Shown one piece after another: positions 3,396-35,024 of a DNA stretch of 35,024 nucleotides. A model generated the notes under the pieces. It searched no databases, was not told the origin of the DNA, and was given only the letters and a program-made list of their open reading frames with translations. The DNA is taken from the IMG/VR virus record IMGVR_UViG_3300034168_001358, positions 1 through 35,024 of that record; one strand, 5' to 3'. The number at the start of each line of letters is the position of its first letter. The first letter of the stretch is position 1. Made by a program: the position numbers and the translations under genes. This DNA is from a virus.

Positions 3396-4607
3396 TTACC
3401 AACTTAATGGGACTCCTTTTTTGAGTGCGAATTTTCTTACGGTGTCGGGAGTGATCGCGAACCACTCCTCTGCTGCTGCTCGTGAGACCAGCGCCCTATA
3501 ATGCTCTTTTATCATCTTGACTGAGTTCCCCGCGAGGTCGGCGGTCATCGCAGGGTTGCGGTGGAGCGCGGCATGATAGGAGCAGAACGAGTGCCGCAGA
3601 GCATTGTTCTTCGTCTCGACTCCGAGTGTCTTGAGCAAAGCCTTGTCAGGCGGGCGGATTTTGCGTGTTTCCACGAGTGGTCCCTCCACGGGCGCAAACT
3701 CCTTCAGCCACGCTTCGAGGTTTGTCGAGATGTCGAGCGTTCGCCCCGCGCCAGTCTTGGTGATCTCGGGGCCGAGGCGCACCAGTTTTTCATCAAACAT
3801 GATTGATTTCATGGTGAGTTTCGGGTCGCCCGCTTCGGAGCTACGAGACCCGCCGAACGCCATCAGCGCAGTGTGTGCGAGGTATCGAGGGTCGGTTGTT
3901 GCGAAAATTGCGAGAAGTTCTCCTGGGCTGTAAATCTCAGGCGTCACCACCGAGACATCGGGAAAGTCTGGCTCAACTTCAACCTTGTCAGGGGAGATGA
4001 AACGCTTCTTTCGGGCAAAGCGCAGGAGCCCCTTCAGCGATCCGAACAAGTTGTGCTTGCTCTTCGTTGAGTAAGGTTCGCCCGTCTTCCCCGTGAGCCC
4101 GTCCAAAAATTTCAAGTATTCTTCGGGCGCGATTGTGTCGATGAACCGCTTTGCAAAGCCGCGCTCCCAAATGTTTCGGTGATGGGTGAGAGTCGCCTCG
4201 TATCGGCCCGAGGGGCCTGATTTCTGGACCCCCGCAATCCACGCTTCCCACACTTCGGAGAATGTCTGTGGAGTAGTTTTCTCGTGGAACTTCAGATAGA
4301 ACTCGACTGCGACGTGCATCGGCGTTGACCCGAGACGCTCCTTGCACTCATTGAAGTAACTCACATCTTGCCCTGAGAGGGCTGTTGCGCTGCCGTCGCA
4401 TGTTGCAAGGTGACGAACAATTCTATCCGCTTCGGCGAGCGCCGACGCCTCTGAATTGTAGGAACGGCGAAAAGTTTTCTTCCCGACTTTCCATGCGAGG
4501 CGGTGAGTTGTGTATGGCCCGCGTGTAATTTTGACGATGCGAACAATGGCGTGCCCGCATTTCAGAATCGTTGTTTTTTCGTCGGGGTTTTCAGTTTGGA
4601 TTTTCAT
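3396..4607 (-). CDS. int: Tyrosine site-specific recombinase (integrase)
   Basis: A 403-residue phage integrase. The N-terminal portion has an Arm-type domain and a core-binding helical region (about residues 100-200). The catalytic domain shows R255 (FGGSRSSEA), K284 (ITKTGAGR), R338-H339 (NALRHSFCSYHAALH) and the nucleophile Y370 (EHYRALV). Two positions usually occupied by His are Asn: N335 in the H-x-x-R motif and N361 in AGNS. I start at ATG 4607 because the longer frame (to 4655) runs into the upstream palindrome. The gene lies next to the putative attP (4770-4792) and reads away from it, the usual arrangement. The box II and box III wording resembles integrases of Verrucomicrobiota as I remember them. 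Confidence 0.9.
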   Translation of the reverse strand: MKIQTENPDEKTTILKCGHAIVRIVKITRGPYTTHRLAWKVGKKTFRRSYNSEASALAEADRIVRHLATCDGSATALSGQDVSYFNECKERLGSTPMHVAVEFYLKFHEKTTPQTFSEVWEAWIAGVQKSGPSGRYEATLTHHRNIWERGFAKRFIDTIAPEEYLKFLDGLTGKTGEPYSTKSKHNLFGSLKGLLRFARKKRFISPDKVEVEPDFPDVSVVTPEIYSPGELLAIFATTDPRYLAHTALMAFGGSRSSEAGDPKLTMKSIMFDEKLVRLGPEITKTGAGRTLDISTNLEAWLKEFAPVEGPLVETRKIRPPDKALLKTLGVETKNNALRHSFCSYHAALHRNPAMTADLAGNSVKMIKEHYRALVSRAAAEEWFAITPDTVRKFALKKGVPLSW

Positions 4608-4632
4608 TTTTCTTCGTTGGTTTGGTTTGTGG

Positions 4633-4657
4633 TTTTGTCCCAAAAGTTGGGACAAAA
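4633..4657. promoter_or_regulatory. Perfect inverted repeat upstream of integrase
   Basis: Eleven-base arms TTTTGTCCCAA and TTGGGACAAAA around AAG, 26 bases upstream of the integrase start. The half-site TTTTGTCCCA recurs at 4740. It is probably an operator for integrase expression or an integrase/accessory-protein binding site within attP. Confidence 0.6.
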
Positions 4658-6688: not shown

Positions 6689-7030
6689 ATGGAGGCTACC
6701 GAATACCCAATTACTATTGAACAGGGCAGCAATTTCCAATTGCAGTTTCGTTGGAAGGTAGATGGCGTAATCGTGGACTTAACGAGTTCCACCGCTGAAA
6801 TGCAACTCCGTAGAAGTTATTCGACCCCTGTAGTTTTTGGACTTAACAGTTTTAACGGGCGTATCCTACTAGGAGGTGCCCTAGGAACAGTATCCCTTGA
6901 ACTCTCCCCCGAAGAGACCGCAGAAATTCCTGCCGGTAACTTTCTATACGATTTGGAGATAACCACTGGCGCGGTCGTGCGGAAGCTCATCAAAGGCTCT
7001 GTCGTCGTCATACCGGAAGTAACAAAATGA
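6689..7030 (+). CDS. Small beta-rich virion/tail-associated protein
   Basis: A 113-residue protein beginning EYPITIEQGSNFQLQFRWKVDGVIVDLTSSTAEMQLR, a pattern I recognise from many phages (I-x-Q-G-x-x-F-x-x-x-x-x-W, then V-D-L-T-x-x-x-A-x-M-Q-I/L-R). These proteins have a predicted Ig-like fold and are usually encoded near fibre or baseplate genes. The middle has a LSPEETAEIPAGNFLYDLEI segment, also typical. It is followed with an ATGA overlap by a collagen-like gene, so it may anchor the collagen-like and fibre proteins to the virion. The function is inferred from position. Confidence 0.55.
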   Translation: MEATEYPITIEQGSNFQLQFRWKVDGVIVDLTSSTAEMQLRRSYSTPVVFGLNSFNGRILLGGALGTVSLELSPEETAEIPAGNFLYDLEITTGAVVRKLIKGSVVVIPEVTK

Positions 7031-7554
7031 GTGAAATTATTGAAATCATTGGAACCGGCTTGACGGGCCCTTCGGGCCCTCGCGGGTTGCCTGGCACAAA
7101 TGGAGCCGTCGGTCCCGCTGGAGCTGACGGCCCTGCTGGCCCTGCCGGAGTGGGAACCGTTGGAGCTGACGGCCCTGTCGGCCCTGCTGGAGACCGAGGG
7201 GTTGCAGGGGAGCAGGGGTTGCAGGGAGTTGTCGGCCCGCAGGGGGTCAAGGGCGAACGCGGGCTTACGGGACCGTCGGGGCCACAAGGCGAGCGCGGCT
7301 ACACTGGAGATTTAGGCCCCACCGGCTCAATTGGGCCTATCGGCCCTAGGGGAGAAGTGGGCACGCGGGGCGAGCGGGGAGAAATCGGGTTTCCAGGCAA
7401 CAACGGATCGCAGGGACCTCGCGGGTATAAAGGGGATATGGGGATCACGGGGCCTATCGGCCCTCTCGGCCCTCCTGGCCCCACGGGGGCTAAGGGACAA
7501 CAAGGAGTGGTAAGCAATTCAACAGTAATGGCATTGGCAATAGCGTTAGGATAA
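7027..7554 (+). CDS. Collagen-like Gly-X-Y repeat protein
   Basis: A 175-residue protein with an 11-residue head (MSEIIEIIGTG) and then about 48 almost unbroken Gly-X-Y triplets (LTGPSGPRGLPGTNGAVGPA and so on to GAKGQQG), rich in Pro and charged residues, ending in a short hydrophobic tail (VVSNSTVMALAIALG). Such triplets form trimeric collagen helices and are common in phage fibre proteins. The triplets vary in sequence, unlike the near-identical repeats of the second collagen-like gene at 21677. It starts by ATGA overlap with the upstream gene, just before the two giant fibre genes, so it is most likely a trimeric virion appendage or linker. Confidence 0.85.
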   Translation: MSEIIEIIGTGLTGPSGPRGLPGTNGAVGPAGADGPAGPAGVGTVGADGPVGPAGDRGVAGEQGLQGVVGPQGVKGERGLTGPSGPQGERGYTGDLGPTGSIGPIGPRGEVGTRGERGEIGFPGNNGSQGPRGYKGDMGITGPIGPLGPPGPTGAKGQQGVVSNSTVMALAIALG

Positions 7555-16351: not shown

Positions 16352-16375
16352 TAACCGCGTAACCTAACCTTGCCG

Positions 16376-17056
16376 ATGCTTCTCGTCCTACCATACAACT
16401 CCAAGCACCTCCCCCTCTACAAACACATCCTCGCTCTGAAGGGCTGCGCCAAGCACGATGTTCTTCTTGTGGGGCCGAACAGCCAAGTCTTTGAGATGGA
16501 GGGGGCTCTCAATATCCTAAAAGGCGCTTTCGCCCATGCGGATATATTTACTGGGGACGCCGAATACCTAAGTCCCAATAAGCTCTTTGCCGACACCGTT
16601 CGCTGGCTTGATTCTGTTGGCAACGAAGAGCCCTTTTACTGGTTTGCTGACAGCGTGCCGGTCAAGCCTTCTTGGCTCATGGACATTTTTAAAGAGTATT
16701 GCGCGAAGAAGATGCCCTACATGGGAGCCACGCAAGTCGTTCCTGGTTGGAACCCCGCCACTCAAAAGTGGGAGAAGGAACCCCCACGCCTGATCGCAGC
16801 CAGCGTGTATCCCCCTGACCTCTGGCACCGCAGCATGCTTGTAAGACAGCTCTCCTACCGCACGGGCGCGGAGCCGTGGCACTCGCTGATGCGGTTTGAG
16901 ATTCGCCCTAGAGCCACTCAAAGCGAGTTCATCCAACACGGCGGCAAGGTCCCCGTGAGCCCGAAAATCGCTGTTTATGCAAATGTGGACGTGCTTGAGG
17001 AACTTGAATGGCTGAACAAGCCCATAAAAAAGGAAAAAGACAATGCCGGAAAGTAG
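16376..17056 (+). CDS. Glycosyltransferase-like (GT-A fold) phage protein
   Basis: A 226-residue protein from ATG 16376 (a TTG at 16370 is in frame but less likely). It starts with a Rossmann-like strand MLLVLPYN, then HDVLLVGPNS, and has LFADTVRWLDSVGNEEPFYWFADSVPVKPSWLMDIFKEY. From memory this parallels a group of phage proteins with W-x-W-x-E/D-x-D-x-V-P-x-x-x-G/S-W-L, thought to be GT-A-type glycosyltransferases. The D-S-V-P variant lacks a clean DxD, so activity is uncertain. It overlaps the portal start by 14 bases. It may decorate virion proteins or host surface sugars; the assignment is tentative. Confidence 0.45.
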   Translation: MLLVLPYNSKHLPLYKHILALKGCAKHDVLLVGPNSQVFEMEGALNILKGAFAHADIFTGDAEYLSPNKLFADTVRWLDSVGNEEPFYWFADSVPVKPSWLMDIFKEYCAKKMPYMGATQVVPGWNPATQKWEKEPPRLIAASVYPPDLWHRSMLVRQLSYRTGAEPWHSLMRFEIRPRATQSEFIQHGGKVPVSPKIAVYANVDVLEELEWLNKPIKKEKDNAGK

Positions 17057-19367
17057 CCAATCTCCCCTCGATATAAAAGGACTCGACCCCGTAACGGGGG
17101 CCGCACCAAAATGTCGCGTCGAAAAGGTGGACGCTGCCCGCTCCATTTATCTTGCGATCAAAAAATCCGATGAGGGCAGTTCCCGCAACCGCGCTTTGAT
17201 CGACGGGATGTTCAGCGGCAACCCGCCGTTCAACCCCAACGATTTGATTGAGATGGGGCAGGCGGATCGCACCAATCTCGATTTTGGAGACGCTGGGGCG
17301 ATCAAGGAACAGGCTCTTGCTGGCTACTACGACCTCACCAGCTCCGTCGATAAACTGGCTCGCGTGCAGACTAGCCATGGCACAGCGGAGCAGGCGGCGG
17401 AGTGGGGCGAGATTATCTCCGAAGAGTTTCATCACACCCTGCGCGAGTGGCGCGAGTTTGAGTTCAACCATCAGCGTCTCTCCGACTATTTCGTTTCCCA
17501 CGGCGTAGGCATTACCTTTTTTGAGGACGAAGTGGACTGGCGCTACCGCGTGGCGGGGCTCTCTGAATTTCGCATCCCTAGGGCAACCCGTGCGAGCGAG
17601 TCGGAAATCGAAGTTGCGACAGCCGACCGCGAATACCGCGCCGACGAGCTTTACGCGTTTATCCGCGATCCTGACGTAGCGGCGGAACTTGGGTGGGATG
17701 TTAAGACTACCCGCGCCGCCATTCAACGAGCCTGCTACGCGAATCAGATGATGACCCTCTCCGATTGGGAGAAGCTGGAAGTCGAACTCAAGAACAACGA
17801 CCTCCTCTACGGTCAGGCCAAGAGCAAAGTCGTGAAGGTCGTTCATATGTGGGTGCGCGAGTTTTCCGGCAAGGTCTCGCATTTGATTTTCCTCCAAGAG
17901 CCTCTCGACTCGCCGCTGGACAAAAGCGAAGGTTTTCTTTTTAAGCGGGAGAACCGCTTCGACTCGCCCACGAACTGTTTCGTGACTTTCTGCTACGGGG
18001 TGGGGAATGGCACCTATCACGGCATTCGCGGGCTGGGGTTCAAAATATACCCGCACATCCAAGTTTTGAACCGTCTGCGTTGCGGCATGGTGGATGGGGC
18101 TCTCCTCTCCTCGTCGCTCATCGTGCAACCAAGCGACAGCTCCTCTAGGGCGCTCGACGACCTGACGCTCACCTATTACGGCCCCTACGCACTCTTCCCG
18201 CCTGGGCTCAAGATTGTTGAAAAAGCCGTGCCGAATTTGCAACAAAACATCATCCCAGTCATCAACGACATGACGATGCAGATGCAAAACAATACAGGCT
18301 CTTACCAGACCCGCGCCACTACTCCTGATGGGCAGTCCCGCACCGCCTACGAAGTCCGTAGCCAGTTGCAGAAAGAGGCGACACTCTCCTCGGCGAGCAT
18401 CAATCTTTTTTACCACCCTTGGAAAAGACTCCTCAACGAAGTGTATCGCCGTCTAGCCCGCCGCGACTACACAGCATTGGAGCCAGGCGGAAAAGAAGCT
18501 GTTGAGTTTCGGAAACGCTGTATCAAACGAGGCGTCCCAATCGAGGCGATCCTCAAGGTCAAACAGGTCGATCCCGTCCGCGCCATTGGCTACGGCTCGC
18601 CCCAGATGCGTATGGCGGCGGTCGATGAGACCATGCAAATTTTTGGAAGCCTCGACGAGGCTGGGCGCATCAATCTTCTTCGCGACCGGATCGCATGCCG
18701 CTTCGGGCAAGAAGTAGTGGATCGCTACTTGCCCCCGCCTCAGACAAGCCTTCGGCCCCCGCTCGACTACAAAATTGCAATTTTGGAGAATGCTACGATG
18801 TCTTCCGGCAGTGGGATTCCCGTCAGCCCTGGAGAAAATCATTTTATTCATGCGTCCACGCATTTGCAGGCACTCGACCAACTCGACCAAGCAGTGGCAG
18901 AGGGCGCGGGCGACCCGCAGCGGGCTATTGTGGCGTTCCAGATGTTCTTACCACATCTCGGCCAACATGTGCAGGCGCTCGGCCAGGATTTGATCCGCAA
19001 AGACGAGGTCGCTCTCATGCGTCAACGTCTACAGCAGCTTCAGGCGAGTGCCCAGCGGCTGCAAGACGAGTTGCAGGCGCAGGCACAGAACGCACAAAAG
19101 GCCGAGCAGGCCGAGGGCGAGCGGCAACAAGTGGCGATGCAAGCTGAGTATGCGGCGATGCAGAAGAAGATTGCCGAGATGGAGCAACTCAGCCCCGAGG
19201 CGCAACAGAGGTTGCTTGAACGCCGCGCTGAAATGCAGATGAAGATTGAGAAGCACCAATCGGAGATGCAAATGAAGTCAGCTTCGACTCAACAAAAAAT
19301 GATTTTAGAGGACGCTAAGGCCGCTGCAAAAGTGAGGGCGTCCGCAGCACAAGCCCCCCAGATATGA
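17043..19367 (+). CDS. Portal protein
   Basis: A 774-residue protein. Typical portal features: an N-terminal region (MFSGNPPFNPNDLIEMGQADRTNLDFG) leading into helices that contact the capsid, a central beta/alpha wing (DWRYRVAGLSEFRIPRA), a long helical stem part (NIIPVINDMTMQMQNNTGSYQTRA), and a C-terminal barrel-like coiled coil rich in Gln/Ala/Glu (about 665-760, LMRQRLQQLQASAQRLQDELQAQAQNAQKAEQ). The size matches large podovirus portals. It forms the dodecameric DNA channel at the capsid vertex and docks the terminase. It is followed by coupled small genes and the scaffold. No protease motif is fused to it. Family inferred from architecture and position. Confidence 0.82.
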   Translation: MPESSQSPLDIKGLDPVTGAAPKCRVEKVDAARSIYLAIKKSDEGSSRNRALIDGMFSGNPPFNPNDLIEMGQADRTNLDFGDAGAIKEQALAGYYDLTSSVDKLARVQTSHGTAEQAAEWGEIISEEFHHTLREWREFEFNHQRLSDYFVSHGVGITFFEDEVDWRYRVAGLSEFRIPRATRASESEIEVATADREYRADELYAFIRDPDVAAELGWDVKTTRAAIQRACYANQMMTLSDWEKLEVELKNNDLLYGQAKSKVVKVVHMWVREFSGKVSHLIFLQEPLDSPLDKSEGFLFKRENRFDSPTNCFVTFCYGVGNGTYHGIRGLGFKIYPHIQVLNRLRCGMVDGALLSSSLIVQPSDSSSRALDDLTLTYYGPYALFPPGLKIVEKAVPNLQQNIIPVINDMTMQMQNNTGSYQTRATTPDGQSRTAYEVRSQLQKEATLSSASINLFYHPWKRLLNEVYRRLARRDYTALEPGGKEAVEFRKRCIKRGVPIEAILKVKQVDPVRAIGYGSPQMRMAAVDETMQIFGSLDEAGRINLLRDRIACRFGQEVVDRYLPPPQTSLRPPLDYKIAILENATMSSGSGIPVSPGENHFIHASTHLQALDQLDQAVAEGAGDPQRAIVAFQMFLPHLGQHVQALGQDLIRKDEVALMRQRLQQLQASAQRLQDELQAQAQNAQKAEQAEGERQQVAMQAEYAAMQKKIAEMEQLSPEAQQRLLERRAEMQMKIEKHQSEMQMKSASTQQKMILEDAKAAAKVRASAAQAPQI

Positions 19368-19582
19368 GAGACTACGCTAAAGAATACAAAGATTTTCACG
19401 CCAAGCCCGACCAGAAAAAGCGCAGGGCCGGTCGAAATGCCGCTCGTCGCAAGCTCACGGCCCAGGGGCGCGTTTCCAAAGGCGACGGCAAAGACGTGGA
19501 CCACATTGACAAGAACACCCTTAACAACAGCCCAAGCAACCTTCGCGTTCTGCGTGCCAAGGTAAACCGCTCGCTCCAATGA
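19364..19582 (+). CDS. Small basic HNH-like protein
   Basis: A 72-residue protein beginning MRDYAKEYKDFHAKPDQKKRRAGRNAARRK, with KGDGKDVDHIDKNTLNNSPSNLRVL in the second half. DVDHIDKNxLNNxxxNLRV is the HNH_3-type core (His in VDH, Asn in NN, and N-L-R-V). This short basic form beside a portal gene is common in phages, and its function is unclear; it may nick DNA during packaging. The zinc-ribbon cysteines of full HNH enzymes are absent. It overlaps the portal stop and the next start by four bases each. Confidence 0.7.
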   Translation: MRDYAKEYKDFHAKPDQKKRRAGRNAARRKLTAQGRVSKGDGKDVDHIDKNTLNNSPSNLRVLRAKVNRSLQ

Positions 19583-19977
19583 ACCGACAGGAAGATGTGG
19601 CCGATTTTTTTGAGTTCTTAGAAAGCTATGAATTTGATGTCGCATGGTTTGAGCAGCACTCGTCAAACCCCCAAGATCAAAGGGGCTTTCCAGCGCCCGT
19701 GCAAGCGCGGATCAGTGGTTCAGACATTCAGGGGGTTGGGGTTTTTTCAACAGCAGACTTTGCCCCCAGTGAGGTTGTGGCCCCCGCTTTTGTTGGGGGA
19801 AAACGAACCCCTGCCGGTCGCTATACTAACCACGCCAAAGACCCAAATGCCGCGATGAGGATGCTGGATAGTGGAGACATCGACTTAACCGCTATTCTGC
19901 CCATTCGAGCGGGCGAGGAAGTCACGGTAAATTACCGACAGGTTATGGGACTACGACAGGTTATGGGACTGCGCTAA
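19579..19977 (+). CDS. SET-domain protein (putative lysine methyltransferase)
   Basis: A 132-residue protein. Residues 45-125 carry SET-domain hallmarks: GSDIQGVGVFSTADFAPSEVV (the G-x-G-v-f-A motif that starts the SET fold and binds S-adenosylmethionine), RYTNHAKDPNAAM (consensus R-x-x-N-H-x-x-x-P-N) and the C-terminal GEEVTVNY (consensus G-E-E-l-t-x-d/n-Y with the catalytic Tyr). It would methylate lysine on a phage or host protein. It sits in the head-gene operon between portal and scaffold, so a virion or procapsid protein is a possible substrate. The last residues RQVMGL are duplicated by an 18-base tandem repeat. The role in phages is unknown to me. Confidence 0.8.
   Translation: MNRQEDVADFFEFLESYEFDVAWFEQHSSNPQDQRGFPAPVQARISGSDIQGVGVFSTADFAPSEVVAPAFVGGKRTPAGRYTNHAKDPNAAMRMLDSGDIDLTAILPIRAGEEVTVNYRQVMGLRQVMGLR
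19936..19970 (+). repeat. 18-bp tandem duplication at SET gene 3' end
   Basis: CGACAGGTTATGGGACT occurs at 19936-19952 and again at 19954-19970, adding a second RQVMGL just before the stop. One base differs after each copy. A recent replication-slippage event. Confidence 0.85.
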
Positions 19978-20213
19978 TGCCGACTCCATTGGACATGGCG
20001 AAAAGCCTTTTGACTGAAACCGCGCACTGGGCAAAAAAAGGGTTCAAGCTGGCGAGTGGAAGCGTCATTACCGACCGCTACTCCAAATGCGTCGTGTGCC
20101 CGTATTGGGACAAAAAATCTTACGGGGGCTCTGGGAAATGCACCGTGTGCGGGTGCAGCACAAAAGCCAAGCTGGTGCTGGAGACCTCCAAGTGCCCTGA
20201 AGGCAAATGGTAA
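19977..20213 (+). CDS. Small zinc-ribbon protein
   Basis: A 78-residue protein with Cys in CVVCPYW, then GKCTVCGC and a final SKCPEGKW. Four to six Cys arranged as two CxxC knuckles around an aromatic/Gly-rich loop suggest a zinc ribbon. Small proteins of this type, ending CPxGxW, are frequent next to portal and capsid genes in many phages, but I know of no assigned function. It starts inside the TAATG of the SET gene and its stop is eight bases before the next ATG. Confidence 0.6.
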   Translation: MPTPLDMAKSLLTETAHWAKKGFKLASGSVITDRYSKCVVCPYWDKKSYGGSGKCTVCGCSTKAKLVLETSKCPEGKW

Positions 20214-21676: not shown

Positions 21677-22489
21677 ATGGACAAAATACCGCTATGGGCT
21701 CCGGTTGGCCCCCCGCTGCAAGAAAATCGGTATTACACCGCGCCCGAAGTTGACTATTTAATTGCGACAAACCCAGGCCCCGCTGGTGCTGATGGAGCCG
21801 AGGGTCTAAAAGGCGACAAAGGCAACGACGGTCAGAACGGAGCCGATGGTCTAAAAGGCGATCCAGGCAACGACGGTCAGAACGGAGCCGATGGTCTAAA
21901 AGGCGATCCAGGCAACGACGGTCAGAACGGAGCCGATGGTCTAAAAGGCGACAAAGGCAACGACGGTCAGAACGGAGCCGATGGTCTAAAAGGCGATCCA
22001 GGCAACGACGGTCAGAACGGAGCCGACGGTCTAAAAGGCGATCCAGGCAACGACGGTCAGAACGGAGCCGATGGTCTAAAAGGCGACAAAGGCAACGACG
22101 GTCAGAACGGTGCTGATGGAGCCGATGGTCTAAAAGGCGACAAAGGCAACGACGGTCAGAACGGTGCTGATGGAGCCGATGGTCTAAAAGGCGACAAAGG
22201 CAACGACGGTCAGAACGGAGCCGATGGTCTAAAAGGCGACAAAGGCGATCCAGGCAACGACGGTCAGAACGGTGCCGATGGTGCCGATGGTCTAAAAGGC
22301 GATCCAGGCAACGACGGTCAGAACGGTGCTGACGGTGCCGATGGTCTAAAAGGCGATCCAGGCAACGACGGTCAGAACGGTGCTGACGGTGCGGCGCTAC
22401 TCCCTGACTTGCCTTCGGGGGGCGGAGTTTTTGTGTTGGGGATTGCGAATGGGACTCTTCAATGGGTCGCAACGGAGATTTGTGTATGA
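21677..22489 (+). CDS. Collagen-like protein with near-identical 15-residue repeats
   Basis: A 270-residue protein. A 34-residue head (MDKIPLWAPVGPPLQENRYYTAPEVDYLIATNP) is followed by about 200 residues of Gly-X-Y built from units such as GLKGDKGNDGQNGAD and GLKGDPGNDGQNGAD, some with an extra GAD or GDP triplet. The tail (LLPDLPSGGGVFVLGIANGTLQWVATEICV) could trimerise or bind the virion. DNA repeats are 45-54 bases and nearly identical. Its stop overlaps the start of a lamin-tail-like gene. Located between scaffold and major capsid genes, it is probably a capsid-surface fibre or decoration. Confidence 0.85.
   Translation: MDKIPLWAPVGPPLQENRYYTAPEVDYLIATNPGPAGADGAEGLKGDKGNDGQNGADGLKGDPGNDGQNGADGLKGDPGNDGQNGADGLKGDKGNDGQNGADGLKGDPGNDGQNGADGLKGDPGNDGQNGADGLKGDKGNDGQNGADGADGLKGDKGNDGQNGADGADGLKGDKGNDGQNGADGLKGDKGDPGNDGQNGADGADGLKGDPGNDGQNGADGADGLKGDPGNDGQNGADGAALLPDLPSGGGVFVLGIANGTLQWVATEICV
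21778..22395 (+). repeat. 45-54 bp collagen-coding tandem repeats
   Basis: The unit GGTCTAAAAGGCGA(C/T), then (AAA/CCA)GGCAACGACGGTCAG, then AACGGAGCCGAT occurs about twelve times. Unit types (KG versus PG, with or without an added GCTGAT/GCCGAT triplet pair) are shuffled along the array, suggesting unequal recombination. All length steps are multiples of three. Confidence 0.9.
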
Positions 22490-22905
22490 CGCTAGGTCTC
22501 ACCGCATCCAACTCGGTAAGAATTAGAGTTGACTTGAGCGGGCTCCGCGCCGTCTCGTGCGGGTGTTGTTGCATTGAATCTAGCGCATACAATTTTGTCC
22601 TCTCCAACTTTAGCTTAGTAGGAGAAACTTGCACAATAACGAATGAATCCGATGCGCCCGCTTGCCTTTCTGGTTGGTTATATGTAAGCGTCGTTGGCCG
22701 CTCCGGCAACTACCCGCAAGAATACTGGCTGCCTGAATGGATTATAGCACCCCAGGGGCAGGTAGTCCTCACATCTGGCGGTAGTGGGGCGACCACAAAA
22801 CCGAACGCGATCCATTTAACAACCGCCTTTATTTACAACAATGCCGGGGACACATCACAGCTTTACGCTCCCGACGGGACGCTCGTAAGCTCTATATCAG
22901 CATGA
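22486..22905 (+). CDS. Lamin-tail-like (LTD/Ig-fold) small virion protein
   Basis: A 139-residue protein from ATG 22486, overlapping the collagen stop (ATGA); the frame upstream of it is only an extension. The last part, YNNAGDTSQLYAPDGTLVSSIS, closely fits the lamin-tail domain ending (n-x-x-G-D-t-x-x-L-y-d-x-x-G-x-x-v-d-s), and ITNESDAPACLSGWLY...PEWIIAPQGQVVLTSGG fits its strand order. A cluster SCGCCC lies near residue 25. Lamin-tail domains are found in bacterial and phage surface proteins. Encoded right after a collagen-like protein, it may cap or accompany that fibre. Confidence 0.5.
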   Translation: MTLGLTASNSVRIRVDLSGLRAVSCGCCCIESSAYNFVLSNFSLVGETCTITNESDAPACLSGWLYVSVVGRSGNYPQEYWLPEWIIAPQGQVVLTSGGSGATTKPNAIHLTTAFIYNNAGDTSQLYAPDGTLVSSISA

Positions 22906-23340: not shown

Positions 23341-24681
23341 ATGGCAGCACTACAAAACATTGAACAGCTTTTCGTTGAATGGGGCGGTCTCATCCGCAAC
23401 AACATCGCAAAGAACATCGTCACTTCTGACTTCTACCTCAAATATCTTCCTAAAGATAAGTGGGTTGATGGACAGGGCACCCAGATCAGCTACCCGATCT
23501 ACGAACGCTCGCTTTCTAGCGCAGCGGTCAACACCGCAGGGGGCGTAACCTTTGAAGCCTGGACATCTTCAGGCGGCGACGGCAACAAAGAGTCTACGAT
23601 TGGCTCCTACACCTCCAACCCCACCAACTCCAACTTGGTGGGCAGCAACGGCGGGCCAAACAACCGAGGCGGCATTGACGGCGGCGGGAGCCGTATCGTC
23701 GGTCAGAGCATCGACTCTTTTGGCGTAACCGTCCGCACCATGAGCCTCAAAAAGGCGGCTCTCAACAGCCCCGACATCTGCCTGGACGATCTTCAGTTCG
23801 CTTGGCAGGTTGAGGACCAGGTCAAGAACGTCGTGCGTGTTCTTTCCGAGAATACCAAGTATGTCTGGACAAACACCTATCAAGACGAGTATGTGTCCGC
23901 TTGCGGTAATCGGTCGGTAGCAATCAACAACTTCGACCCCACCACAAGTGCATTCCTAGCTACCCCCGCGACATCAAAACTCACTTGGGGCATTCTGGAA
24001 GCCATTTACGAGCAGCTCGGTTATGAGGGCGGCTCGATCAACCCATTCAAGCGTGTTGACGAGATGACTCCGATCTACGCGGCTGTTGGTGAGCGTTATA
24101 CGTTCTCCGACCTTAAGCGTCAGGACGCCAACGTCCGCGACGACTACCGCTATGCCTACATGGGCAGTGGAGAGAGCAACCCGATGATGGCGGCCCCTGG
24201 GCTCAACACGATCACTCGTGGATTCCAGTTCTTCACCGTCGAGCTTCCTCCTCGCTTCGAGTTTGACGCCGAGGCTGGCGAATGGGTGCGCGTGTTCCCA
24301 TACGAGCCAATCGCAACAAGCCGTGGCATGAAATGGGAGATCAGCGCACGCTACAAAGCGGCTCCGTTCACCGATACAGTGATCTATCACCAAGACGTGA
24401 TGAAAATCCTCACGCCTTCCCCTCGCACCAGCAAGGGCGGCGGCATGACCTACAACCCATCCTTTAGCTGGGCTGGAGAGTTCGTGTGGCGCAACATCCC
24501 CGACCGCGAGAGCAACATCGACGGTTCGACTGGCTTCTTCCGTGCGCTTTACGCCTACGGTGCCAAAGTCGAGCGCCCAGAGTTGGGCTTCGCAGTCCGC
24601 CACCTCCGCTGTGTGGATCGTGCAACCGATCTCACCGATTGCGCTGGCGACCAGGTCTGCCCACCAGCACCGGTCCTCTAA
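23341..24681 (+). CDS. Major capsid protein
   Basis: A 446-residue protein. It follows the scaffold group, has its own promoter and leader, and its composition (many Asn, Tyr, Pro, aromatic strands such as FFTVELPPRFEFDAEAGEWVRVFPYEP) is that of a capsid shell protein. N-terminal MAALQNIEQLFVEWGGLIRNNIAKN would be the N-arm; residues 75-115 form a Gly/Asn/Ser-rich loop (SSGGDGNKESTIGSYTSNPTN...GIDGGGS), possibly an extended surface loop. The HK97 fold is inferred from gene order, not from a motif. Terminal residues CAGDQVCPPAPVL have two Cys. The stop is followed by a large stem-loop. Confidence 0.75.
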   Translation: MAALQNIEQLFVEWGGLIRNNIAKNIVTSDFYLKYLPKDKWVDGQGTQISYPIYERSLSSAAVNTAGGVTFEAWTSSGGDGNKESTIGSYTSNPTNSNLVGSNGGPNNRGGIDGGGSRIVGQSIDSFGVTVRTMSLKKAALNSPDICLDDLQFAWQVEDQVKNVVRVLSENTKYVWTNTYQDEYVSACGNRSVAINNFDPTTSAFLATPATSKLTWGILEAIYEQLGYEGGSINPFKRVDEMTPIYAAVGERYTFSDLKRQDANVRDDYRYAYMGSGESNPMMAAPGLNTITRGFQFFTVELPPRFEFDAEAGEWVRVFPYEPIATSRGMKWEISARYKAAPFTDTVIYHQDVMKILTPSPRTSKGGGMTYNPSFSWAGEFVWRNIPDRESNIDGSTGFFRALYAYGAKVERPELGFAVRHLRCVDRATDLTDCAGDQVCPPAPVL

Positions 24682-32312: not shown

Positions 32313-32966
32313 ATGGAGGCTACAACTTTCACCTCTGCTAAAACCACGCTTGCCCCTTATGTGGACAACGGCGTAAATTCAACAGAATCGACGCGCATCG
32401 AATCACGCATCAATGAAGCCCAGCGTCGTCTGATCGACCACTTCAACTATCTCTGCCGCCGTGAAGAACTGGAGCGTGTTGCTTTGATTTATAGTGCTGG
32501 GACTCCGACATCTGACTTAATACTGGATAACTTGGACGCGACCAAGGTTCTAATTCTTGCCCTTTGGCGGGAAGAGAACAACGAACTTGAAATGGCTGCG
32601 TCCTTGGAAAAGCGGGCGTTGGACATGGTCGAGCGCGATCTCATGCAGGAGGTCGAAACCGGGCGCAGGGAGGCGTATCAACTCCTCGAAAGCTCGAAAG
32701 CCTACAACACCCTAGGGGGGCTCGTTGGGCGGCTCGGTCTTGAAGTCGTGCCGCGCTACCGCATCGCCCCCGACCGACTTCGTTCCTATATCCGATCAGC
32801 CTACCGCCTCGCGGTGGACCATCACAATTATGTCGTGCGCCGCGAGGCGCTGGATCGCCCCGCGATCACGGCAAACACTCTCCCCACAGACGACTCCACT
32901 TTGGCGATCTCTACAGAAGTCATCCGCGAAATCGTCATTTCACAAATGGCACAAGACAACACATAA
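32313..32966 (+). CDS. Adaptor-like tandem-repeat virion protein, member 1
   Basis: A 217-residue protein with two copies of a helical domain. The N-terminal copy starts TESTRIESRINEAQRRLIDHFNYLCRREELERV, typical of phage head-tail adaptor proteins (R-x-x-x-I-N-x-A-Q-R-R-L), followed by ATKVLILALWREENNELEMAASLEKRALDMVERDL. The second copy (VETGRREAYQLLESSKAYNT...GGLVGRLGLEVVPRYR...RSYIRSAYRLAVDHHNYVVRREA) is the form that recurs in the next two genes. This is probably a neck or connector protein, the simplest member of the three-gene family. Confidence 0.6.
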   Translation: MEATTFTSAKTTLAPYVDNGVNSTESTRIESRINEAQRRLIDHFNYLCRREELERVALIYSAGTPTSDLILDNLDATKVLILALWREENNELEMAASLEKRALDMVERDLMQEVETGRREAYQLLESSKAYNTLGGLVGRLGLEVVPRYRIAPDRLRSYIRSAYRLAVDHHNYVVRREALDRPAITANTLPTDDSTLAISTEVIREIVISQMAQDNT

Positions 32967-32971
32967 AAACT

Positions 32972-33841
32972 ATGGCACAACAACAACAGCAAAACGAAAG
33001 CGACCCAGTCAGGGTTGCTGGCGACCCCACTAAAATAAGCGCGTTCGATATTATCGAGCGCAACATCATACGCGATGTTGAGTCGTCCCGTAAAACTGAG
33101 TTCCAAGCCTTGGAGAGCGCAAGCAACCAAAATACTTTTGGTGGTTTGGTCGGTCGAATCGGGCTTGAAACTTTTGACAAGTATCGCAATACAGCGGCTC
33201 GCGTAGCCAGCTACGTCAATCAAGCCTACCAAGCAGCCATCGACCACCACAATTATCTGACGCGCAGAGAAGAGCTTGACGCGGCTGAACTTACTTTTGT
33301 CGCTAAGGACATCAGCCTCGTGGCTGACAAGGCAACCGCGTTTGACTCAAAGATACCAATTGAAGTTGTCGGGCAGCTAACTCGGGCGCTCATGATAACT
33401 GATGCGGGGCAGGATGGCTCGGTGCTTAAAGGTCAAGCACTCGGGCTCATCGAGCGAAATGTTACGACATCAGTTGAAAAAAACCGCAGGATCACATTTC
33501 AAAATCTGGCAACCGGCAACCAACAAAACACATTTGGCGGCCTCGCCGGACGTATCGGTCTCGAAACAGTGGCCCGCTACCGCCTCTCCGACACCCGAAT
33601 CAAAAGTTACATCAATCAGGCATACCAAGCCTCCGTCGATCACTATAACTTTGTAGCCCGCCGCGAGAACTACCACCAGCCCCAGCTAATCTTTCTTCCG
33701 CTCACCGCAGAGAGCAGCTCTTTTGATGAGGCGATCCCTGCCGAAGTGGTGCGGCTGATCGTGTTGTCCTACATCCAGAATGATGCCGCTGATCGTCCTA
33801 CGGCTGGACCGATTGCGTCAGGAGCGGGCAGAAACGAATAA
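32972..33841 (+). CDS. Adaptor-like tandem-repeat virion protein, member 2
   Basis: A 289-residue protein with two full repeats: residues 25-156 and 157-272, each with IERN(I/V)...(V)E..R, QNTFGGL(V/A)GRIGLET...YR.....(V/I).SY(V/I)NQAYQA...DH(H/Y)N(Y/F)..RRE, a strand, IP.EVV..L. and (repeat 1) DAGQDGSVLKGQA. The N-terminus MAQQQQQNESDPVR is likely flexible and the C-terminus (ADRPTAGPIASGAGRNE) too. The start has no Shine-Dalgarno sequence (AACATAAAAACT). It lies five bases after member 1 and ends one base into member 3. Same possible connector role. Confidence 0.6.
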   Translation: MAQQQQQNESDPVRVAGDPTKISAFDIIERNIIRDVESSRKTEFQALESASNQNTFGGLVGRIGLETFDKYRNTAARVASYVNQAYQAAIDHHNYLTRREELDAAELTFVAKDISLVADKATAFDSKIPIEVVGQLTRALMITDAGQDGSVLKGQALGLIERNVTTSVEKNRRITFQNLATGNQQNTFGGLAGRIGLETVARYRLSDTRIKSYINQAYQASVDHYNFVARRENYHQPQLIFLPLTAESSSFDEAIPAEVVRLIVLSYIQNDAADRPTAGPIASGAGRNE

Positions 33842-35024
33842 TGCAACCGCCCGAACCCGCCAAGTCAGTGAATTTCGATCCTTTTAGGAGCGAAGCGTTC
33901 TCGCTTATCGAGCGCAACATAGCCACACAGGTAGAATCCGAGCGGAAAGCTCGGTTTTCTACGCTTGCGGCGCTGGGGCAAGATACGTTCGGGGGGCTGG
34001 CGGGTCGGGTCGGGCTTGAGACATTTTCCGCTTATCGCCTACCAGAGGCGCGGGTAAAAAGTTATATTAACCAAGCGTATCAACAATCCATAGACCACTA
34101 TAATTTTGTTATCCGCCGAGAGGACAAGGAACGCATTTCTCTTACGTTTTTGTCTTTGACTGGGGACCTACAAAAATTTGACCCGCTCGTCCCTTATTGT
34201 ATTCCCGTGGAGCCGATACGCTTGTTGGTCATTGCACTAATCATGCTAGACGCGGGGCAGGACGGGACCGCAATCAAAACTCAGGCATTTGATCTCATCG
34301 AACGGAATGTTATTGCCGTTGTTGAACGAGACCGAAAAGAGGTGTTCCAAACTCTCGCCTCTCCAGGGAGCCAAAACACTTTTGCTGGCCTGGTCGGTCG
34401 CGTCGGGTTGGAGTCGTTCAAAGCCTACAATCTGACTCCCGCGAGGGTGGCGAGTTATGTGAACCAAGCTGGGGCAATGGCGGTAGACCACTACAATTTC
34501 TTGACCCGCAGGGAGGAGAACGAACTCCCCTCGATGGAGTGGTTGCCTAGGATGACGCCGGAGGACGACGCCGAGATAGCGACGCCGCTCGTTACGGCGG
34601 AGGGGGTCCGGCTACTCACGGTCTCCTTAATTGTGCTGGACTCAGGGCAGGACGGCTCGGGCATGAAAACCCAGGCGTTTGACTTGATCGAGCGCAATGT
34701 CATAGCCTCCGTCGAACTCGCCCGCAGAGGGGCTACGGGGGAAGTGGGCCGCCTACACAACGAGCTGACCACGGGCCTTAAAGTGCCCAGTGCTCGACTA
34801 ACCAAACTGCTCAACCAAGCAGTCTCCGAGGTGATTTCGCACCAGAATTTCCTAGCCCGCGCTGATGATGATGACATCCCCTCCCCTCCAATAACCTACG
34901 AGCAAAAACGCCTCCTAGTGGAGAGCTATCTTGCTGCCCTTGCCGGTAACGCGGAAGCGTCCCTAGGGCTAAAAAAAGCCGCCTTGGATTTGGTTGAACG
35001 CGACAGGGTGGCAAACGACGAAAC
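33841..35024 (+). CDS. Adaptor-like tandem-repeat virion protein, member 3 (partial)
   Basis: Open frame from ATG 33841 (inside the TAATG of member 2) to the right edge, 394 codons so far, so it is truncated by the window. It holds three repeats beginning near residues 18, 142 and 273: FSLIERNIATQVESERK, FDLIERNVIAVVERDRKEVF and FDLIERNVIASVELARR, each followed by the GR(V)GLE..., NQAYQQS(I/A)DHYNF..RRE and AGQDGxxxKTQA motifs (the third is more divergent: LTKLLNQAVSEVISHQNFLAR). A fourth begins at LDLVERDRV. A CCCTAGGG site lies at 34961-34968. Confidence 0.65.
   Translation, partial: MQPPEPAKSVNFDPFRSEAFSLIERNIATQVESERKARFSTLAALGQDTFGGLAGRVGLETFSAYRLPEARVKSYINQAYQQSIDHYNFVIRREDKERISLTFLSLTGDLQKFDPLVPYCIPVEPIRLLVIALIMLDAGQDGTAIKTQAFDLIERNVIAVVERDRKEVFQTLASPGSQNTFAGLVGRVGLESFKAYNLTPARVASYVNQAGAMAVDHYNFLTRREENELPSMEWLPRMTPEDDAEIATPLVTAEGVRLLTVSLIVLDSGQDGSGMKTQAFDLIERNVIASVELARRGATGEVGRLHNELTTGLKVPSARLTKLLNQAVSEVISHQNFLARADDDDIPSPPITYEQKRLLVESYLAALAGNAEASLGLKKAALDLVERDRVANDE

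Follow-up and report, generated by a model that had tools for sequence, protein, structure and literature searches.

Eukaryotes use SET enzymes to modify chromatin, and some bacteria and one algal virus use them as effectors; the role of a catalytic tyrosine is established for the family. The hosts of tailed phages are prokaryotes, in which no histone H3 tail is expected. Database entries for phage SET proteins leave them unnamed or call them "SET domain containing"; literature searches returned no functional study of phage SET enzymes, no account of a cupin-SET tail family and no report of lysine methylation in phage particles or infected bacteria, and only an annotation remark was found, concerning ORF62 of Stenotrophomonas phage Ps15 (PMC9025141). 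The closest solved viral relative of the protein considered here is vSET (A612L) of Paramecium bursaria chlorella virus 1, a small stand-alone SET protein that is packaged in the virion and trimethylates host histone H3K27 (PMC7019647, PMC3946773). The SET domain of MLL1/KMT2A provides the best structural and the best profile match. Among phage proteins, the closest group is PHROG 34170 (e.g., Rhodoferax phage P26218 gp30), whose members have a cupin domain at the N-terminus and are encoded within the tail/ejection block. The cupin proteins of phrog_12032 and phrog_24280, which lack a SET domain, are homologous to the N-terminal half of such cupin-SET proteins.

The window, that is, the whole stretch of 35,024 bases analysed, contains terminase (PHROG 2, E 1.3e-13), integrase, tail-fibre-like and endolysin genes and therefore belongs to a tailed phage. 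It is probably a fragment, since relatives of its portal-like and coat-like genes are found on contigs of up to 83 kb, and it contains no tRNA gene. The relevant features are as follows.

17043..19367, plus strand: 774-aa portal-like protein, named from size and position only
19364..19582, plus strand: 72-aa HNH protein (Pfam HNH_3, 33.7 bits), left edge of the cassette
19579..19977, plus strand: SET-domain protein gene, ATG start, TAA stop, 132 aa; identified by Pfam SET, model, fold and profile against the PDB
19732..19746, plus strand: codons G52-V-G54-V-F56, SET motif I, cofactor backbone; G52 and G54 invariant (101/101)
19819..19848, plus strand: codons R81-Y-T-N84-H85-A-K-D-P-N90, SET motif III, cofactor-binding NH; N84 and H85 invariant (101/101)
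19912..19935, plus strand: codons G112-E-E-V-T-V-N-Y119, SET motif IV, catalytic Tyr119; E114 in 101/101, Y119 in 100/101
19936..19970, plus strand: perfect 18-bp tandem duplication at the 3' end of the SET gene, encoding QVMGLR twice; absent from L001 and L002
19977..20213, plus strand: 78-aa Cys-rich protein (CxxC...CxxCGC), right edge of the cassette; starts inside the SET stop codon
20507..21673, plus strand: 388-aa scaffold-like protein, named from composition and position only
23341..24681, plus strand: 446-aa coat-like protein, named from size and position only
33841..35024, plus strand: last gene, truncated by the contig end; its orthologue in L170 and L175 precedes a stand-alone cupin gene

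The portal-, scaffold- and coat-like proteins look like what these names say, as judged by size, order and co-occurrence with the terminase gene. None of the three yielded an informative Pfam, PHROG or PDB profile match, or a tblastn match among named phages. The 774-aa and 446-aa genes did not match the P22-like portal, coat and Hc3 profiles, and a 694-aa gene resembled Hc3 weakly at best in a profile comparison (probability 17%, E 0.0014). Immediately upstream of the portal-like gene, positions 16370-17056 encode a 228-aa protein, glycosyltransferase-like by eye only, that occupies the same place in many relatives, and the integrase-like gene lies on the minus strand at 3396-4655 (PHROG 1, E 3.5e-15). 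Collagen-like genes with G-x-y repeats are present at 21677-22489, with a 45/90-bp DNA repeat, and at 7027-7554. The collagen-like neighbour, which lies in the same operon and encodes many GxK triplets, was considered as a methylation substrate and discarded, given that none of the 100 other SET loci has a collagen-like ORF in the stretch of DNA covered. A lamin-tail-domain protein is encoded at 22462-22905, with a Pfam LTD score exactly at the cut-off, and three successive paralogous genes with internal VGRxGLE...HHNYxxRRE repeats occupy 32313-35024, the last being cut by the contig end.

The 132-residue SET protein consists of a helical N-terminal part (residues 3-28), a core spanning approximately residues 40-121 and a C-terminal helix. 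The first-pass annotation had recognized three SET hallmarks in it, and all are present: GVGVF at 52-56, RYTNHAKDPN at 81-90 and GEEVTVNY at 112-119. The assignment to the SET family proved right, as the protein scored 33.6 bits against Pfam SET (PF00856; E 5.5e-8), above the curated cut-off of 22.4 bits, and vSET was its best PDB match by phmmer (E 0.0034). A profile built from 50 relatives matched the MLL1 SET domain (E 6e-9) and vSET (4e-7) in the PDB, as well as EZH2 and SETD8. Moreover, the AlphaFold2 model (pLDDT 90.5, pTM 0.83) forms a SET fold with the cofactor motifs in place, so that, within the limits of sequence and modelling, the proposed check by structure prediction supports the assignment. 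With this model, Foldseek placed vSET first (E 4e-7), and VIA-align, in which the rows listed were SET proteins, superimposed it on MLL1 with bound SAH (Z 10.7, rmsd 1.6 over 79 residues) and on vSET (Z 9.7, rmsd 2.3 over 80 residues). Such agreement between Pfam, PDB profiles, AlphaFold2, Foldseek and VIA-align indicates that fold and motifs are not due to chance. By every family-wide feature checked on sequence and model, the window protein belongs in the SET family. It has no post-SET zinc cysteines (indeed, no Cys in 132 residues), a trait that characterizes some SET subfamilies only and does not define the family.

The comparison with the known systems reveals both likenesses and differences. 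The window protein and vSET are both small stand-alone viral proteins sharing GxGVF, NH..PN, EExTxxY and an aliphatic residue two positions before the catalytic Tyr, but the phage protein has a shorter stretch from GxG to NH, and sequence identity is low. By analogy, the window protein would work most like vSET, although it cannot be called a histone methyltransferase. In contrast to MLL1/KMT2A, it lacks both the post-SET zinc cysteines and known partner proteins. The likeness to PHROG 34170 extends to the active site and the helical lead-in: residues 6-127 match the C-terminal 155-283 of these proteins (E 2e-24), and residues 2-127 match profile positions 149-281. However, the window protein consists of the SET domain only and is encoded between portal-like and scaffold-like genes. 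Without the cupin, it qualifies only in part as a cupin-SET protein.

This family is far from small. At least 307 stretches encode it in an alignment-based scan of IMG/VR, compared with six stretches only in the scan of prokaryote genomes; nine records of named phages match by tblastn, including Rhodoferax phage P26218, Pseudoalteromonas phage PH1, Pelagibacter phage Kolga and spring-water podoviruses, one of the nine being annotated after the PBCV-1 methyltransferase. Thus, SET methyltransferases may be best known from eukaryotes and a chlorella virus, as the first-pass annotation put it, but phage SET proteins are not exceptional. In the 101 proteins aligned, G52, G54, R76, T77, G80, N84, H85 and E114 are invariant. 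Conservation of the catalytic Tyr was an explicit point to verify, and Tyr119 is kept in every relative that extends to this position, the sole exception being cut by its own contig end. The residue two before it is aliphatic in nearly all 101 proteins, as in vSET. The SET gene is under purifying selection, with dN/dS values of 0.03-0.19 in the pairs examined, some of which have saturated dS; the value is about 0.16 for the window and L001 (dS near-saturated) and about 0.17 for L001 and L002. In the tree, the window clusters with L001 and L002 with a support of 100/100; the tree does not resolve the deeper branching or, with it, a derivation of the stand-alone form from the fusion.

In 94 of the 101 proteins, SET makes up the C-terminal half of a cupin-SET fusion of roughly 290 residues. 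A full-length model of one such relative, L020 (pLDDT 91.2), shows a cupin domain, whose best cupin rows reach Z values of about 10, a helical linker and the SET domain; the PHROGs matched by the cupin half bear the names short tail fibre protein and tail fibre adhesin. The fusion gene occurs in P22-like podoviruses, after the head-closure gene and before the genes for DNA ejection, in a conserved order: gp4-like, Hc3 (gp10-like), a small protein, cupin-SET, gp7-like DNA ejection and more ejection-like genes. The same cupin gene, lacking SET, is common in Vibrio, Shewanella and Thalassomonas phages; in Thalassomonas phage BA3, Vibrio phage VPMS1 and a further spring-water podovirus, its position matches that of the fusion gene. 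Therefore, SET is an optional addition to the P22-like cupin tail protein. In a Paraburkholderia ferrariae genome (L101:7210-8654), the cupin and SET genes are adjacent with an overlap of a few bases, a natural split of the fusion, and a stand-alone SET homologue is found in Pelagibacter phage Kolga outside any recognisable structural block.

A different arrangement emerges in the lineage of the window, defined here as the contigs with related portal-like and coat-like genes. The start of the SET gene overlaps by four bases (ATGA) with the stop of the upstream ORF (19364-19582), and its stop overlaps (TAATG) with the start of the downstream one (19977-20213). Translational coupling on both sides to head genes had been claimed: the overlaps are real, but the direct neighbours are the HNH and Cys-rich proteins of 72 and 78 residues. 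Of the roughly 18 related contigs with the junction, only the window, L001 and L002 (same contig as L174) contain SET. In 14 others the site is empty, the Cys-rich gene directly following the HNH gene with a gap of -4 to 0, and one contig has a different gene of 510 aa there. In the DNA alignment, a single gene is cleanly inserted between the HNH and Cys-rich genes; together with the empty sites, this identifies SET as an accessory cassette and not as part of core head morphogenesis; the view of the gene as a fixed component of a head operon cannot, hence, be maintained. In L112, L114, L117 and L129, the interval from the HNH gene to a 98-aa gene contains 3-5 kb of other genes, some of them fibre-like or lysis-like by eye, which makes it a variable slot.

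No cupin domain is present in the SET protein of the window, nor any cupin gene, including counterparts of phrog_12032 or phrog_24280, within its 35,024 bases. Several relatives of the window, however, encode a cupin homologous to these proteins as a separate gene, which in L170 and L175 directly follows the orthologue of the truncated last gene. From this synteny, the virus may have a cupin gene just past position 35024, and cupin and SET would then occur together in it. In L178 (15134-15790), a stand-alone cupin protein carries at its N-terminus a short sequence (RIGASPIEG) similar to the beginning of the SET domain, perhaps a remnant.

The explanation we favour, and in which as a whole we have moderate confidence, is that the gene encodes a minimal, catalytically competent accessory SET lysine N-methyltransferase acting most likely on a tail or ejection protein of the virion. 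In the scheme we infer for its expression, SAM binding, activity and substrate, the gene, a late-operon accessory cassette, would be translated with its neighbours through the stop-start overlaps; SAM would be bound through the GxG and NH motifs, and Tyr119 would support lysine methylation by the usual SET chemistry. The substrate would be a structural protein of the tail/DNA-ejection complex, either the cupin protein or one that partners it. This choice stems from the covalent joining of SET to cupin in P22-like phages and the presence of cupin as a separate gene in relatives of the window. The fusion beside ejection genes likewise makes a tail or ejection protein a better guess than the capsid, portal or scaffold lysine suggested in the first-pass annotation. 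The location of the SET gene and the tail genes of the window in different operon regions counts against a tail substrate. Since many phages of both lineages have the cupin but lack SET, methylation is not essential to the cupin.

A substrate in the virion is ranked first and one in the host second. The latter possibility, in which a host nucleoid protein, translation factor or polymerase would be methylated, perhaps by a virion-delivered enzyme, appears rather unlikely, even if it has points in its favour: vSET, by analogy, is packaged and modifies a host histone, the fused form adjoins DNA-ejection genes, so that entry with the DNA is conceivable, and the Kolga homologue stands apart from structural genes. 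On the other hand, the window gene belongs to a late operon, and the fusion of 94 of 101 proteins to a tail-associated domain suggests a fixed place in the particle. The same tail fibre and adhesin annotation of the fused partner might be taken to mean that the SET fold now serves as a structural or adhesin module, its catalytic function lost; this is improbable, because the invariant residues are those of SAM binding and catalysis (G52, G54, N84, H85, Y119) and not merely of the core, and the cupin-only gene versions show that the particle can do without a SET domain. Finally, the rarity of SET at the junction (3 of about 18 contigs) and the 18-bp duplication at its 3' end would fit a transient insertion without function, confined to this lineage. 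We consider this very improbable in view of the intact frame and active site, the preservation of both overlaps and the low dN/dS of the window-L001 and L001-L002 pairs.

Extending the virion-substrate explanation, it may tentatively be proposed that the tail or ejection apparatus of P22-like and related podoviruses is lysine-methylated by the phages' own SET enzyme, either built into the cupin or supplied in trans from a mobile cassette, and perhaps carried in the virion to act on entry. The cupin-SET phage family is large and apparently undescribed, and SET proteins that combine an intact active site with a tail-associated cupin imply that lysines are methylated in phage particles or in infected bacteria. 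Two cultured phages, Rhodoferax P26218 and Pseudoalteromonas PH1, carry the family, making direct testing possible.
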